From contig NC_003070.9 in NCBI RefSeq assembly GCF_000001735.4, forward strand, positions 23,235,971 to 23,299,970: a stretch of DNA of 64,000 bases, in the 5' to 3' direction. The position numbers and the translations under genes were made by a program. Origin of the DNA: Arabidopsis thaliana (Eukaryota > Streptophyta > Magnoliopsida > Brassicales > Brassicaceae). Below the pieces are notes generated by a model. It had not been told where the DNA came from and ran no database searches. It saw only the letters and a list, made by a program, of their open reading frames with translations. This document shows positions 56,155 to 64,000 of this stretch, piece after piece (the first letter of the stretch is position 1; every line of letters begins with the position of its first letter).

Positions 56155-57337
56155 ATGGGAGAGGTCTGGACATGGATTATTTCATTCTTAATCCTTATCA
56201 CTCTTCTCGGACTCATCGTCTATCAGGTTCGATCTGATTCCCACTTTGGACAAAAAAAAAAACCTAAAACTGTTTACTTTGGTTCCATCGACTCTTCTTG
56301 CTTGTTGTATTTGAATAAACTCTGCTTAGGCTTATTCGATCACTGTATTGAACTAAATTTAGTGTTTTGTGTTCTTTCAATCATAAATCGTTTATAAGAA
56401 ATGTTTCTAAGTTTTGGGAATGTGATAAAGTTAGTAACTTTAGGGTTTCTTTATATAATAACTAGTTAATCTGTCAACTAGAAACAATTTTGTTTCTTAA
56501 ATTCTTCAATTGCTTCTTGATATATGTGTATTGAATCTGTAGATGTTATCTTCTCAGTTTATATCAATCCAGCAAGTATCTGTGAGTGTGTACAAGTGTG
56601 TGTGCTCACGGGTATTAGAGTTTACTTCTTAATGTTTCTGGATTAGTAAGCTCTGATTTGGTATCTGTAGAGTTGATCTATAATGTTTTGAGTAATGAGA
56701 TTCATAATAACCAGATATTTTATAGGAGAGTCTTGATCATATGTCTCTGCTATTTTGCTTTGCTTGTGTCCTTGTACCGAAACTGACGGTGCTTATTGAT
56801 ATGATATTTTGTTGCAGCTTATTAGTTTGGCTGATCTCGAGTTTGATTATATCAACCCTTACGACTCTGCATCAAGAATAAACTTTGTGGTATTACCAGA
56901 ATCCATTCTTCAAGGATTTTTATGCGTATTTTACCTCGTAACGGGTCATTGGTTCATGGCACTCCTTTGCGTTCCTTATCTCTACTACAATTTCCATCTG
57001 TGAGTCTCTCTTTTTTAAACAATCTTGGATCAAGTTTAACATCCAACGGCAAGCTGATTTTGATAATGAGTATATCATTCTTTCCTGTTATTAAAGGTAC
57101 TCTCGAAAACAACATTTGATAGACGTGACAGAGATCTTCAACTTGCTTGATTGGGAAAAGAAGAAACGACTCTTCAAGCTCGCTTACATTATCCTCACTC
57201 TCTTTCTCACCATTTTCTGGTAACTAGACCTTTCACTGTCTTTACTCAATCCTAAACTCGTACCAAAACATTGAAAACTTATGTTGCAACTTCGTTACAG
57301 GTTAATCTATTCAACACTTGATGATTACGAGGACTGA
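56155..57337 (+). CDS. Cornichon family ER cargo receptor
   Basis: Four exons: 56155-56226, 56818-56999, 57097-57219 and 57301-57337; 137 residues, the normal cornichon length (AT1G62880 by recollection). Residues 5-24 form the first membrane segment ([19 protein letters not shown]). The conserved [14 protein letters not shown] loop follows, then two more hydrophobic segments ([36 protein letters not shown]) and an acidic end (DDYED). Cornichon/Erv14 proteins load membrane cargo into COPII vesicles at the endoplasmic reticulum. In plants they affect Golgi targeting of glutamate-receptor-like channels and sodium transporters. All splice joins keep the frame. The TFB5 gene lies about 1.1 kb downstream on the same strand. 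Confidence 0.93.
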
Positions 57338-58442
57338 ATCACGCTTGAAGATACACCCCTGTGACAGGCGACAACAAACGGTTTGGTCAAACCCCTCTCT
57401 TAGTACTTGACACCGCGCTTGATACAATGGCATGAGAAGGAAGGCTTTTAGGTTATGTAAGTTAATTAATGTGGCATTAGAGAGCTGTGTAAACCAGATT
57501 TTATAGTCATTAGAATTTCATTGTGGATCTTTGTGGTGAAGCCAAGCAGTGAATTGTTAACCATGATTGGAACCCTCTAACTAAGTCAGAAGGTTTTACT
57601 TTTTATTTTAGCTGCAAAATTATTTATTAGTATATAAATAAATTGGTAAATTCTCCAAATTGTAGTGAAGAAGCCAGAAGGATTTATCTTTATCATCGTG
57701 GTGAGTTCTTTCTCTAGATTTTTTATCCTCCTCCGAATCGAAATTCTCTATGATTTTAAGATCGTCGTTGGATTCTGAAACTCTTTAACTTTGATTTCTA
57801 CTTAAAACCCTAACTAATGTTTTGACGACTGGAAAAAAAAAACCAAATCTCGTTCACTCTTTTGTTTTTTTGTTTTGTTCTGAATTTCGTGTGGAATCTG
57901 TGGACGTAAACGCGGAACAAACATAGATTTGTTGGTGATGTAAATTGCAAAGATTGTTACTCAGTAATGAATCTTCTTCGCATATGTTATATTGTTTCGT
58001 AAGAGGATTAAGATGACAATAGCATTAGGGTTTATATAATAGAGTAAAAACAAAATTAAGCACAATGTTAACTAGTAATGTAAATTGTTGTTAATTTGAG
58101 CTACGATTAGTGTCAATAAACATCAATAAACATAGTTACCGAGCTTTGACTGAATTTTGAGAATTTTTGAGTGTTGTTGTTTACTGCAGTTTTAGTCATG
58201 TTCTTGAATACACTCTGGTTTCAGTTTCTTCTCTGCTTCAATGGTTAAACTCCATTGTTAGTTTTGATCTACGATCAGTTTTTCGATTAAAGCACAAGTA
58301 AACCGAGCTTTTGATTTGAGTCCAATGGCTGAAGACTCTCTTTATGATGTTAAAAAACGATGTTGTTTACAGTTTTGGTGATTCAAGATTTCTAATGTTT
58401 TTTGAATGTGTTATTGTTTCAGGTTCTTTGCTTTAAGATTCA
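57338..58442 (+). other. Cornichon 3' UTR and TFB5 5' UTR intron
   Basis: After the cornichon 3' UTR, a likely TFB5 leader starts near 57665 (GAAGAAGCCAGAAGG...CATCGTG). GTGAGT follows at about 57700, and a matching TTTCAG acceptor lies at 58417-58422. This gives a 5' UTR intron of about 720 bp, typical of Arabidopsis housekeeping genes. Confidence 0.5.
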
Positions 58443-58740
58443 ATGGTTAACTCAATCAAAGGAGTCTTCATCTCATGGTACATTACATAACCTTTCTTGT
58501 TAATATACTCTGTCGAGAAATCGTATCTTTTATCTTTGTTTTTTTTGTTCTTATAGTGATGTTCCCATGGCACAGTTCATTGCACATTTGAACAATTCGT
58601 TGCCTGCTTCACAGAAGTTCATAATTCAAGTACTGAAACTGGACACTACTAGTATGTTTGTGAAGCCATATGCTGAGGAGATGATCCGTGATGCCGTCAT
58701 CAAGTTCAGGGACGAAAACTCTTACGCAAAGGCGAATTGA
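58443..58740 (+). CDS. TFB5: TFIIH subunit TFB5 (TTDA/GTF2H5)
   Basis: Two exons, 58443-58477 and 58557-58740, giving only 72 residues, the usual size. The protein begins MVNSIKGVFISCDVPMAQFI and has the family blocks SCDVPMAQF, LPASQKFIIQVL, FVKP and FRDENSY near the end. TFB5 binds the p52/TFB2 subunit of the general transcription and repair factor TFIIH. It stabilises the complex and stimulates opening of damaged DNA in nucleotide excision repair. The split Cys codon (TG|T) joins exactly at the conserved ISCD. By recollection this is the AT1G62886 region. It is immediately followed by a LINE insertion. Confidence 0.93.
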
Positions 58741-59688
58741 TCGTTTTTTTTCTTCTTCTCGGTTTCGGTTACTAGATGTCGATTTTGGATCTTAATGTAG
58801 TGTGGAGATCAACAAGGATTTGTGGGAAATCTCTGATGGAAAATATACATGTTTGTTAATTATTAATGTACAACGAATCTGAAAAACCGAATTGGTTTAT
58901 TTTGACAACGCAACAAAACTTTGCAAATGATATAATTTGAAAACGCGAACTGGTCGCAGCTGGGAAGACTTTTGGACATCACGGGTACTCGTTTTTTGTT
59001 GTTGTTATGGCTTTGTTGACTAAGGTTACTTGGAACAACATCGGAATGCATCAGCCACAAACGAATTGGTACAAGGGCGTATGGTTCCCCTACTCAACGC
59101 CCAAGTACTCTTTTCTTTTGTGGCTCACAATCCAAAACAGACTATCCACAGGGGATCACATCAAAGCATGGAACTCTGGGCAACAAGTCACCTGCACACT
59201 CTGCGGCAATGCTGAAGAAACACGGAATCTCCTATTCTTCTCATGCCATTACACCTCCGAAGTTTGGAGAACCCTTACGCAGCGGCTCCTGTCCAACGAC
59301 TACTCTCGTGACTGGAACCGTCTCCTTCCTCTGCTCTGCAATACAAATATGCCAACGGATCTTCTCTTTTTGTTTCGGTATGTCTTCCAAGCCTCTGTTT
59401 ACCACATATGGCGAGAAAGAAATGCCCGACGACACGGAGAAATCAGCTCACCACCAAACCGGCTCATAAAGTTCATAGACAAGAATGTTCGCAATAGAAT
59501 CAACTCAATTCGAGACACTGGAGATCATAACTACAACGCTTGCCTGCAGCTATGGTTCTCCACGAGGCCTCTTTCATCCACACACTCTCTCTGAATTTTC
59601 CTTTCAGCTTTGTAATTTCAGTTTTCTCTCTAAAACACTAAACTAACCGTTGCAGTCATTGTACAATGGTTTTGATAGAATAAAATTT

Positions 59689-61287
59689 GAGAATATTACA
59701 CTCTTAGACACTTTTTTAAAACTTATTCCGTGTTTAGGCACTTCCAAAAGAGTAGACACTTTCTCTATGTTTTTTTACTAAAATACCCTATTAACTAAAC
59801 TACTCTCTTAATCCTTAATCCACGTTCTCTCTCTCTCTCTTTCTTTCTCTCTCTCTTCATCTTTGTAAACAACTTTAGTTGCGTCTACTTCAATGGAATT
59901 GTTCAAAATAGACAGTTCTCAAAAAAAGTTATTTGTTGGATGTTCAAAATAGCCGATCTCCTTATAATTATTTGTTGAATCCACTCACTCATTTCTTTAT
60001 TTTAGTATTTTAGATGCTATGGAGTTCTTCTTTCAGTTAAAGGATTTGGTATTCAAATTTTGCAGAATTTGAGATTTCTATATTGTAGAATTACTCGGAT
60101 TGTTGTGAGATTATGGATTGATTGGAGAGTTCGATATTTTATTCGTTTTCACTGATTGTAGATTGTGATTTATTTTGCAATTTAAATCTTTGTTTTGACA
60201 TAAATTTGAGATTCAGTTCTTTAAGAAACTTCTTCTTCTTCAACAATGGCGGCTTGATTTGATTTTTGCTCTCTCTCATGTATCAAACTCGTTTCATCTA
60301 CGTAGCATCGAGATTCCAGTTAATCGAATCTCCTATTATCATGGACATGCTATATAGAATGGATATAAATCAGTAAAAAGGTTTTCGAATGGATATATTT
60401 AAATGGATTTGTTATTATGGACACCAAAAAATTGTTTGTTGATTTTTTTTTTCAGTTTGCAGAAACCTCCACCTTTAAGACCTTATGGACATGAAACTTT
60501 GGTTTCTTTACAAAACACGGTTAATCGAATCTCCTGTTATTATTGACATGGTATATAGAATGGATACGGATCAGTAGAAAAGTTTCTGAATGGATATATT
60601 TAAATGGACTCGTTATTATGGATACCAAAAAATTGTTTGTTGATTTTTCTTTCAGTTTGCAGAGACCTCCACCTTCAAGACCTTATGGACATGAAACTTT
60701 GGTTTCTTTACAAACCACAGTTAATCGAATATCCTGTTATTATGGACATGATATATAGATTGAATATGGATCAGTAAAAAGGTTTCCGAATGGATATATT
60801 TAAATGGACTCGTTATTATGGACACCAAAAAATTGTTTGTTGATCTTTTTTACAGTTTGCAGAGATCTCCACCTCTAAGACCTTATGAACATAGAAATTT
60901 TACCAAATTCCTAAGATAATCGAGATCGAATTGTTTAAGAAAATTCTCCCATTTATTTGCAGAATCGGTACCATCGATTTTTGGTGAGCCGCCGCCATAA
61001 TCGATAAGAGGAATCGAGCCTAGAAGTTATGGAGACGTGGAGAGAGAAAGGCACTACAAATCATGAAAGGGGGAGAGAGAGAGAGAGATTTCTTTTATTT
61101 TGCGTAAGGATTGTGGAAGAGAGAGAAAATGTTTAATTTGTATTAAATTTTAAAATAAAAGTAGTTGGTTAAATTAAAGGTAAAAATGTCTTTAAAAAAG
61201 TCAAATAATAGAAAAAGTGTCCTCTCCCTTATAAGTGTCTCAAAAGGAATAAGATTATTTTAAAGTGCCTAAACGTGTCACATTCCC
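59689..61287. mobile_element. Non-autonomous Mutator-like element (MULE) nested in the LINE
   Basis: A 1,599-bp insertion flanked by a 9-bp target-site duplication ATAAAATTT (59680-59688 and 61288-61296), the length made by Mutator transposases. The ends are inverted repeats of roughly 80 bp that align without gaps. The left starts GAGAATATTACACTCTTAG and the right, reverse-complemented, GGGAATGTGACACGTTTAG. Both then carry CACTTT, TTATTCC, AG-CACTT and GACACTTT blocks at the same positions. The interior has no transposase, only three tandem copies of a unit of about 200 bp. Confidence 0.88.
60320..60920 (+). repeat. Three tandem 200-bp repeats inside the MULE
   Basis: Units start at TTAATCGAAT: 60320, 60521 and 60721 (periods 201 and 200). 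Each contains GAATGGATATATTTAAATGG, CACCAAAAAATTGTTTGTTG, CAGTTTGCAGA and CTCCACCT then AAGACCTTATG blocks, with about 5-10% divergence. The third copy fades near 60920. Confidence 0.9.
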
Positions 61288-61497
61288 ATAAAATTTTACA
61301 TTCTTTCAAAAAAAAAAGAAAACGCGAACCGGCCGGTAATCACCAAATAACATTAAAATAACTAAACCGGTTTGGCATTCACTCTCTTCCTCTCTGAGAG
61401 TCTCAGACTCACACACAGTGGTGGTTCGTTTAGGGTATTTGTTGAATTTTTCAGAGCTTCCGAATCAGAGAGATTGAGAAGAAATCAAATAGAGAAA

Positions 61498-61821
61498 ATG
61501 ATGTTATCGTTTGCGATTGCATATACAGCGAAGAGATTTGTTCATCGGAGTCTTGTGGTGAGAGGTAATGCTGCAACTGTTTCTCCCTCTTTTTCCTTTT
61601 GCCGGAGAAGAGCTTTCTCTGGTAAGACTAGTTATGATTACAGAGAGAAACTGAGTAGAAATGGGCTGACTGAATTAAAGTTAGATGACGCTGTTGCTCT
61701 GTTCGGTGAAATGGTCAAGTCTCGTCCTTTACCTTCCATTGTTGAGTTCAATAAATTGTTGAGTGCCATTGCTAAGATGAACAAGTTTGATCTTGTCATC
61801 TCTCTCGGCAAAAAGCAATAA
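61498..61821 (+). pseudogene. RFL-type PPR 5' fragment fused upstream of a methyltransferase
   Basis: An open frame of 107 residues encodes a mitochondrial presequence ([20 protein letters not shown]) and the first PPR motifs ([39 protein letters not shown]). It matches the start of the PPR gene at 63090 nearly base for base up to 61809 (63407 in the other copy). There the homology stops abruptly, and KKQ-TAA follows. The TAA at 61819-61821 directly abuts the methyltransferase ATG in the same frame. The remaining PPR repeats are missing. Confidence 0.85.
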
Positions 61822-62566
61822 ATGAGGGTTTTCGAACTCATTGGTTCGAACGAACAATTCGCTGAAATGTTTAACCGGACAATGTCGGAAGCTTCCACAT
61901 TGATTATGAAGAAGGTTTTAGAAGTTTACAAAGGATTCGAAGATGTAAATACTTTGGTGGATGTGGGAGGAGGAATTGGAACAATCATAGGTCAAGTGAC
62001 TTCCAAGTATCCTCATATTAAAGGCATCAATTTCGATCTAGCATCGGTTTTAGCCCATGCTCCTTTTAATAAAGGTACACGGCCACTAAGTGATAATTAA
62101 AATTAAAAAGTTACCGCTCTTAAAATTATCATATTACTCTTGCTCAATATTACATATAGGAGTGGAGCATGTTTCAGGAGATATGTTTAAAGAAATTCCA
62201 AAAGGAGATGCCATCTTCATGAAAGTAAGTAGAAAATGAAATGGTTAATGATTGACACTTTGACAGTGGATACTACATGATTGGACTGACGAAGATTGTG
62301 TAAAGATCCTAAAAAATTATTGGAAAAGTCTTCCCGAGAAAGGAAAAGTGATAATAGTCGAGGTGGTTACGCCCGAGGAACCAAAGATTAACGACATTTC
62401 TTCTAACATTGTGTTCGGTATGGACATGCTGATGTTAGCAGTAAGCTCAGGTGGTAAGGAGAGGTCTCTTTCCCAATTCGAGACTCTAGCCTCTGATTCG
62501 GGTTTTCTTCGTTGTGAAATCATTTGTCATGCCTTCTCATATAGTGTTATCGAATTACACAAATAG
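61822..62566 (+). CDS. Truncated COMT-like O-methyltransferase
   Basis: Three exons, 61822-62074, 62160-62224 and 62267-62566, give 205 residues. This is the C-terminal SAM-binding half of a plant type-1 O-methyltransferase, which normally has about 360-380 residues. Present: the SAM glycine loop [10 protein letters not shown] of [12 protein letters not shown], the catalytic His in [11 protein letters not shown], and the end [20 protein letters not shown]. Missing: the N-terminal dimerisation domain that builds the substrate pocket, replaced by a PPR 5' fragment in the same frame behind one stop codon. Activity is doubtful. Known to me as AT1G62900. The PPR promoter probably drives transcription of the unit. 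Confidence 0.8.
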
Positions 62567-63089
62567 GCTCGACATTTTACCAACAAAAATTACGATTCAT
62601 CTCTCGTACAGTCGTACTTGCGGAGACTATATAGAGTGGTTGTAATGTGTAAAATAATCTGTGTATTGTTTTTTTTATTTATGTGATTTAAACAAATAGC
62701 ATGGTATTATATAAAAAACAATGTGTTGATATACCAAATTGGTTAGGATTAAGCTTCAAAGATAATGCATTGAGATCAGTCAGTTCAGTTTTTCAAGACT
62801 AGTTGTATATGGAAACAGAAGTAGAGTAAAATAACAGCCATCACCAATTTTTTCCACAATTCTTATCTCTTGCTTGTAAATCCGGTTTGAGACTGTACTT
62901 AGTACTACTGATTGAGATCAATGCAAAAGATTTTCTCACAAAATAAACCGGTTAGGTAATAAGTTCTAAACCAGAACCCCACCGGTTTGCATATCTCATC
63001 CCTCCGTGTAGGGTTTTGCGATTTCCAGAGAGAGAGAGAGTGAGACTGAGATTGAAGTCTCCTGAATCAGCTGAAGCCAAATCGATAAG
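62567..63089 (+). other. Spacer and promoter of the right-hand PPR gene
   Basis: Methyltransferase 3' flank and PPR promoter and leader. A GA-rich leader is at 63029-63060. No separate feature is seen. Confidence 0.55.
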
Positions 63090-64000
63090 ATGCAGAGATC
63101 GATTTCATTGACGGCCAAAAGATTGTTTGTTCATTGGAATCTCCAGGGGATAGGTAATCCTCCAACTGTTCCTTCTTTCTTCAATCTTTGCGGTTCCGGT
63201 TGCTGGGAACGATCTTTTGCTAGTGCTAGTGGTGATTACAGAGAGATATTGAGAAATAGGCTAAGTGATATTATTAAGGTAGATGATGCGGTTGATCTGT
63301 TCGGTGACATGGTCAAGTCTCGTCCATTTCCTTCCATTGTTGAATTCAATAAACTGTTGAGTGCCGTTGCTAAGATGAACAAGTTTGAACTTGTCATCTC
63401 TCTCGGCGAGCAGATGCAAACTTTGGGAATTTCACATGATCTTTACACATACAGTATTTTCATCAACTGCTTTTGCCGACGCTCTCAGCTCTCTCTTGCT
63501 TTAGCTGTTCTTGCCAAGATGATGAAACTCGGCTATGAGCCCGATATTGTCACGCTTTCTTCGCTGCTCAATGGCTACTGTCACAGTAAGAGGATTTCTG
63601 ATGCCGTAGCTTTGGTTGATCAAATGGTCGAAATGGGATATAAACCTGATACCTTTACATTCACAACTCTAATTCATGGACTTTTTCTTCACAACAAAGC
63701 TTCAGAAGCAGTGGCTTTAGTTGATCAAATGGTTCAAAGAGGATGTCAACCAGATCTGGTTACTTATGGTACCGTAGTAAACGGATTATGTAAGAGAGGT
63801 GATATTGATTTGGCTTTGAGTTTGTTAAAGAAGATGGAGAAAGGGAAAATAGAGGCTGATGTTGTGATCTACAACACAATCATTGATGGTCTTTGCAAAT
63901 ACAAACATATGGATGATGCACTCAATCTGTTCACTGAAATGGATAACAAAGGTATTAGACCAGATGTTTTTACCTACAGCTCCCTCATAAGTTGCCTTTG
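63090..64000 (+). CDS. RFL-type P-class PPR protein (partial, runs off the window)
   Basis: Starts [16 protein letters not shown] at 63090 and stays open to the right edge (303 codons). A basic, acid-poor presequence suggests mitochondria. From about residue 70, 35-residue PPR motifs follow in tandem ([89 protein letters not shown]). P-class repeats of this restorer-of-fertility-like clade bind single-stranded mitochondrial RNA, one base per repeat, and typically direct 5'-end processing. By position it is AT1G62910, first of the cluster that contains RPF genes. The intact frame contrasts with the two broken relatives in the window. Confidence 0.93.

Follow-up and report, generated by a model that had tools for sequence, protein, structure and literature searches.

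One of the closest described counterparts of the locus reported here is barley plant R3, in which an induced break was repaired by one-sided strand invasion, or SDSA, together with end joining; the excerpt of that paper used here (PMC4762383) sets out the scheme that we propose below and cites Puchta 1998 for it. A precise homologous junction and an end-joined junction enclose copied donor sequence in plant R3, as they do at the present locus. Unlike the barley case, the event considered here would be natural, concerns paralogues 120 kb apart, carries a non-homologous passenger and has a named gene as one of its products. A second parallel is AlyRFL7 of A. lyrata, where paralogue sequence replaces part of a clustered RFL locus, as here; the whole coding sequence was replaced in AlyRFL7, whereas the edge at the present locus lies within a PPR motif. 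The part of that study cited here (PMC5080715), which deals with the Brassica Rf locus and Arabidopsis relatives, describes gene conversion of RFLs in A. lyrata; of an exchange of PPR domains it reports no clear evidence. Excerpts of earlier work on A. thaliana describe the 23-Mb RFL cluster (PMC1892557), place RFL9/RPF4 at the AT1G62910 table position and give RPF6 as AT1G63130, RPF2 as AT1G62670 and RPF3 as AT1G62930 (PMC12430068), and name AT1G62900 within a list of methyltransferases. RPF4 reportedly takes part in the formation of extra ccmB 5' ends (excerpt of PMC7641866). Titles and abstract openings from the literature on PPR-methyltransferase fusions and chimeric genes held nothing pointing to this locus, and the main texts of two papers on A. 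thaliana assemblies (PMC11096106, PMC7033125) contain none of the words PPR, pentatricopeptide and restorer.

The window analysed is the 64,000-nucleotide stretch C1:23235971-23299970 (C1 being contig NC_003070.9), and similarity searches covered the 119.66-Mb genome on 7 contigs. The At1g numbers of places at this locus are those that we take to apply, following gene order. The features on which the account rests are as follows, in positions of the window unless prefixed with C1.

59689-61287, unstranded: MULE-like transposable element of 1,599 bp, multi-copy, with imperfect terminal inverted repeats and a 9-bp duplication.
61319-61497, plus strand: remaining RFL-like upstream region and leader (~180 bp), 80% identical to the upstream region of the RPF2 locus.
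61498-61809, plus strand: truncated RFL 5' coding end, 93.9% identical to coding bases 1-312 of the RPF2 locus.
61810-61821, plus strand: 12-nt filler AAAAAGCAATAA holding the TAA stop, absent from the donor and not RFL-like; a non-homologous junction.
61822-62566, plus strand: methyltransferase fragment, part of At1g62900, identical to C1:23418131-23418875 at 743 of 745 bases.
61822-62074, 62160-62224 and 62267-62566, plus strand: the rest of exon 2, exon 3 and exon 4 of the fragment in a splice model, with TAG at 62564-62566.
61822-63817, plus strand: copied tract of 1,996 bp, identical to the donor C1:23418131-23420126 at 1,994 of 1,996 bases.
63760-63817, plus strand: homologous right edge, a 58-bp run in which the donor and the RPF3 locus agree (35 bp with the RPF6 locus).
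63090-64000, plus strand: coding sequence of At1g62910 / RFL9 / RPF4 (C1:23299060-23300958, extending beyond the window), 632 aa.

The original prediction had described a chimera of an RFL 5' end and a methyltransferase fragment, and this chimera is real. An open frame of 107 codons at 61498-61818 is followed by TAA at 61819-61821 and ATG at 61822. The RFL piece does break off at 61809: a query of 61760-61880 found 13 places besides the locus itself, 12 of them RFL and one a methyltransferase, and all 12 RFL matches end at 61806-61809, while the sole methyltransferase match begins at 61822. A wider search returned one weak RFL alignment (69%) that extends to 61815. Pieces of 8-12 bases from the filler have no second occurrence on either strand in 57001-64000, on which ground we rejected copying of the filler from nearby DNA. 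The claim that the two sides share a frame also holds, as parent-like splicing reads 107 codons, the stop and 205 codons in a single frame; an equal frame across a junction has a chance of one in three.

Ten other RFL frames show 69-95% identity to the stump over 98-318 bases, and its start resembles a presequence, with 7 K/R and 0 D/E in 42 aa. The first PPR motifs, in contrast to what had been proposed, are not present in full: no motif is complete, motif 1 having only 24 of its 35 residues in the RPF2 register. The At1g62900 stump has no tandem PPR array, its Pfam PPR scores lying below the cut-offs. An RFL promoter and leader had likewise been placed in front of the methyltransferase fragment. 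About 180 bp of RFL-like upstream sequence is indeed left; likeness to the RPF2 upstream region begins at 61319 and covers only ~61319-61497, so that the RFL promoter is short and adjoined by repeats, which weakens promoter capture. For miR161.1, miR161.2 and miR400 the best fit in 61300-64000 has 7 mismatches each; the 3 RFL frames tested have sites with 2-4 mismatches, and these fall at coding positions 968-1195, past the stump. Among the repeats, the MULE-like element is flanked by a perfect 9-bp duplication ATAAAATTT (59680-59688 and 61288-61296), such duplications being typical of MULEs. Its best genome copies are 98% identical over 60300-61287 and 88% over 59689-60400, and 200-bp tandem repeats lie inside it at 60317-60851. 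To its left, a 195-aa frame at 59007-59594 carries a zf-RVT domain (E 3.4e-20) and is probably a non-LTR retroelement remnant.

The methyltransferase piece has one near-identical place in the genome, the one listed above, and chance similarity is excluded by this degree of identity. A parental methyltransferase, which the original prediction supposed to exist, is found intact as At1g63140, 120 kb away. Its spliced frame of 381 aa runs without a stop from 23417517, and leftwards of the shared part it continues into the start of exon 2, an intron and exon 1. The splice model of the fragment uses the sites of this parent (62074/62160 and 62224/62267). An exon 1 next to the shared part and an intact frame are found only at the place starting at 23417517, so that a reversal of donor and recipient was rejected; parent exon 1 has 4 other genome matches at 70-76% and no near-identical second copy in the genome. 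The ATG at 61822, which had been regarded as the start of the SAM-binding half, turns out to be an internal Met of the parent (residue 177 of 381, in exon 2), and exon 1 and the N-terminal 176 residues of the enzyme are missing from the fragment. What is left matches Pfam Methyltransf_2 (E 4.6e-55) and contains VDVGGGIG, the SAM-binding domain thus being retained. These last 205 residues of the enzyme take in its SAM-binding and HDW region and resemble plant COMT-type O-methyltransferases (PDB 6i70, 1kyw), whose part before residue ~158-160 has no counterpart here. Matches to the COMT chains 6i70, 1kyw, 5xoh and 5cvv run from residue ~155-163 onward, which indicates that the N-terminal (dimerisation) part of these enzymes is lacking in the At1g62900 fragment. 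Decayed methyltransferase pieces also occur at C1:23415301-23415782, beside RPF6, and at C1:23421680-23421902, beside At1g63150. Since these remnants adjoin RFL genes, there seems to have been an earlier duplication of the methyltransferase-RFL pair. AT1G63140 appears in the accession list of PMC10904349, in the main text of which the word methyltransferase is absent. PMC5846289 was rejected as evidence of AT1G63140 expression, the identifier being attached in the excerpt to the F-box gene FBS1, apparently by a slip.

The chimera had been bounded at 62566. The methyltransferase does end there, but the shared tract goes on to 63817. Identity over 61822-63817 means that the tract takes in the methyltransferase from the rest of exon 2 through exon 4, then the intergenic region, then the first 728 bases of the At1g62910 coding sequence; past 63817, identity to the donor drops to ~83%. 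On the donor side the same stretch consists of the 3' part of At1g63140, intergenic DNA and the first 728 coding bases of At1g63150, and the donor is intact, with a 381-aa methyltransferase frame and a 629-aa RFL frame in C1:23417517-23421288. The tract and the donor differ only at 61828 and 61879, both of which change an amino acid. Both differences lie within 58 bp of the end-joined junction (p ~8e-4 if differences were uniform, a post-hoc figure). DNA directly before RPF4 is also 92% identical to C1:23687478-23687689, ~390 kb off on the other strand.

RPF4 reads continuously and carries a PPR array of the RFL type, which the register used divides into 15 slots of 35 residues. Its coding bases 1-728 are 100% identical to At1g63150, and bases 729-1899 come from other RFL sequence, ~83% identical to At1g63150, with the edge falling inside PPR motif 5. 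The register was a simple, gap-free 35-residue phasing, in which we compared positions 5 and 35, the PPR code positions. RPF4 and At1g63150 share the code residues of motifs 1-4 in 4 of 4 cases and those of later motifs in 0 of 11, for which 0 of 8 is the fair figure, as the last three At1g63150 slots are out of phase after a small deletion. For the ten remaining RFL frames the shared slots number 0-1 in the first 4 and 0-5 in the 4-11 that follow, so that none of these frames alone explains the RPF4 body. The title of a cited study of RPF4/RFL9 (Stoll et al. 2017) speaks of distinct alleles. The consequential chimera is RPF4, with presequence and PPR motifs 1-4 as in At1g63150 and the remainder from other RFL sequence. 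The tract replaced the 5' third of the next RFL at one end and carries the methyltransferase at the other, its far end. Of the original prediction, the coordinates, the frame, the in-frame joint and the setting in a recombining PPR cluster stand; exon or promoter capture as the main event is not supported.

Whether the stump and the RPF4 body had one parent gene was examined through segment-wise identities to 11 RFL reading frames. Over its first 600 bases the body is nearest to RPF3 (97.0%) and RPF6 (96.7%), with the RPF2 locus at 88.6%; over the last 571 bases the RPF2 locus is nearest at full length (93.0%), and the frame at 23301576 reaches 97.8% over 275 bases. The nearest relatives therefore differ, the RPF2 locus for the stump and RPF3/RPF6 for the first part of the body; as RFLs are mosaics, this neither confirms nor excludes one parent gene for the two. 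The stump stops at RFL base 312, and the body restarts in register at a point corresponding to base 720-723 in the RPF3 and RPF6 loci; both therefore fit one broken gene, and we infer that stump and body were once a single gene.

What can be seen directly is the two edges of the tract, a donor that is intact and the mosaic make-up of the RPF4 coding sequence. One edge is homologous (the 58-bp run) and the other non-homologous with filler, which points to one-sided invasion followed by end joining. We put at roughly 0.65 the probability that the locus is a scar of DNA-break repair by one-sided strand invasion that rebuilt the front of RPF4. A double-strand break would have occurred inside an RFL gene, ~310 bases into its coding sequence. 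The right-hand end would then have been resected and have invaded the homologous coding region of At1g63150, from where synthesis presumably proceeded leftwards for ~2 kb, through the 5' coding part and the promoter of At1g63150 and on into the 3' part of At1g63140. End joining with the 12-nt filler may then have linked the newly made end to the left end, which had stayed untouched, probably all in one step. The left stump of the old RFL would thereby have been joined to a methyltransferase passenger, giving At1g62900, and the remainder of the old gene would have acquired its promoter, presequence and PPR motifs 1-4 anew from At1g63150, giving today's RPF4. The methyltransferase piece is most likely such a passenger, and At1g62900 presumably yields no useful protein. 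With a mutation rate of 7e-9 per site per generation and one generation a year assumed, the two differences give an age of ~72,000 years (Poisson 95% range 9,000-259,000), which, if the tract was homogenised after the junction had formed, would be no more than the date of the last exchange.

Such homogenisation is one alternative, which we regard as unlikely. The crowding of both differences near the junction would also fit an older junction later homogenised by conversion: an older methyltransferase-RFL duplication would have stood beside the stump, and recent conversion from At1g63140-63150 would have homogenised ~61880-63817. The position of both differences in the first 58 bp and the remnants that suggest earlier pair duplication favour this view; yet the conversion must by chance have ended just before it reached the junction, and error-prone synthesis at the end-joined edge would explain the two differences equally well. 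Quite improbable, too, is an origin in two steps, in which unequal crossing-over between the old RFL and At1g63150 produced a 120-kb tandem duplication with an RPF4-type hybrid, and a later end-joined deletion removed the DNA between base 312 of the left RFL copy and a point within methyltransferase exon 2. This would yield the same final structure, and unequal crossover is seen as the easiest source of RFL segmental duplications in the cited part of PMC5080715, but two events are required, the second deleting nearly all of the duplicated 120 kb, and both must be recent enough for 2 differences in 1,996 bp.

The original prediction had also raised a read-through PPR-methyltransferase fusion. 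The common frame, the presequence-like N-terminus and the retained SAM motif and HDW would suit a nascent gene of this kind, expressed through read-through, the internal ATG or stop-skipping splicing as a mitochondrial or truncated enzyme. For the last route, a splice-donor-like CTG/GTAAGA at 61621-61627, within the RFL presequence region, shares its phase with the exon 3 acceptor at 62160, and splicing between the two would skip the TAA; the resulting presequence-methyltransferase form would lack SAM motif I, however, and the 61621 site is also common to the RPF2-locus and 23301576 reading frames. At1g62900 has no uninterrupted PPR-methyltransferase frame, the TAA at 61819 lying within the filler and, with parent-like splicing, 253 and 318 nt upstream of splice junctions. 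A stop that far before a splice junction is, as a general rule in plants, expected to make an RNA an NMD substrate, and this rule predicts that fate for At1g62900 RNA. Because the TAA precedes the intron by 253 nt, exon 1 and the N-terminal 176 residues are absent and eight ATGs lie upstream of 61822, a functional fusion was rejected as the main reading, and a nascent gene of this kind is very improbable. The preferred account is a repair scar that carries a passenger fragment, with RPF4 as the altered gene.

Evolution is rapid in restorer-like PPR genes, and it has been suggested before that they exchange blocks of motifs. The kind of event is already known, and At1g62900/RPF4 is a clean example of it: both edges, the donor and the filler of a motif-block exchange are legible here, and what resulted is a factor for ccmB 5' ends that already has a name. 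The locus holds little interest as a methyltransferase fusion; seen as a domain swap that can be dated, it is open to test. It is possible, though we would lean against it, that the repair event was the birth of RPF4, a one-step exchange of promoter, presequence and PPR motifs 1-4 having created, within Arabidopsis thaliana, a new factor for the processing of mitochondrial RNA, with the scar marking the accessions that carry it. If so, the activity of RPF4 on ccmB could be compared before and after a natural PPR domain swap.
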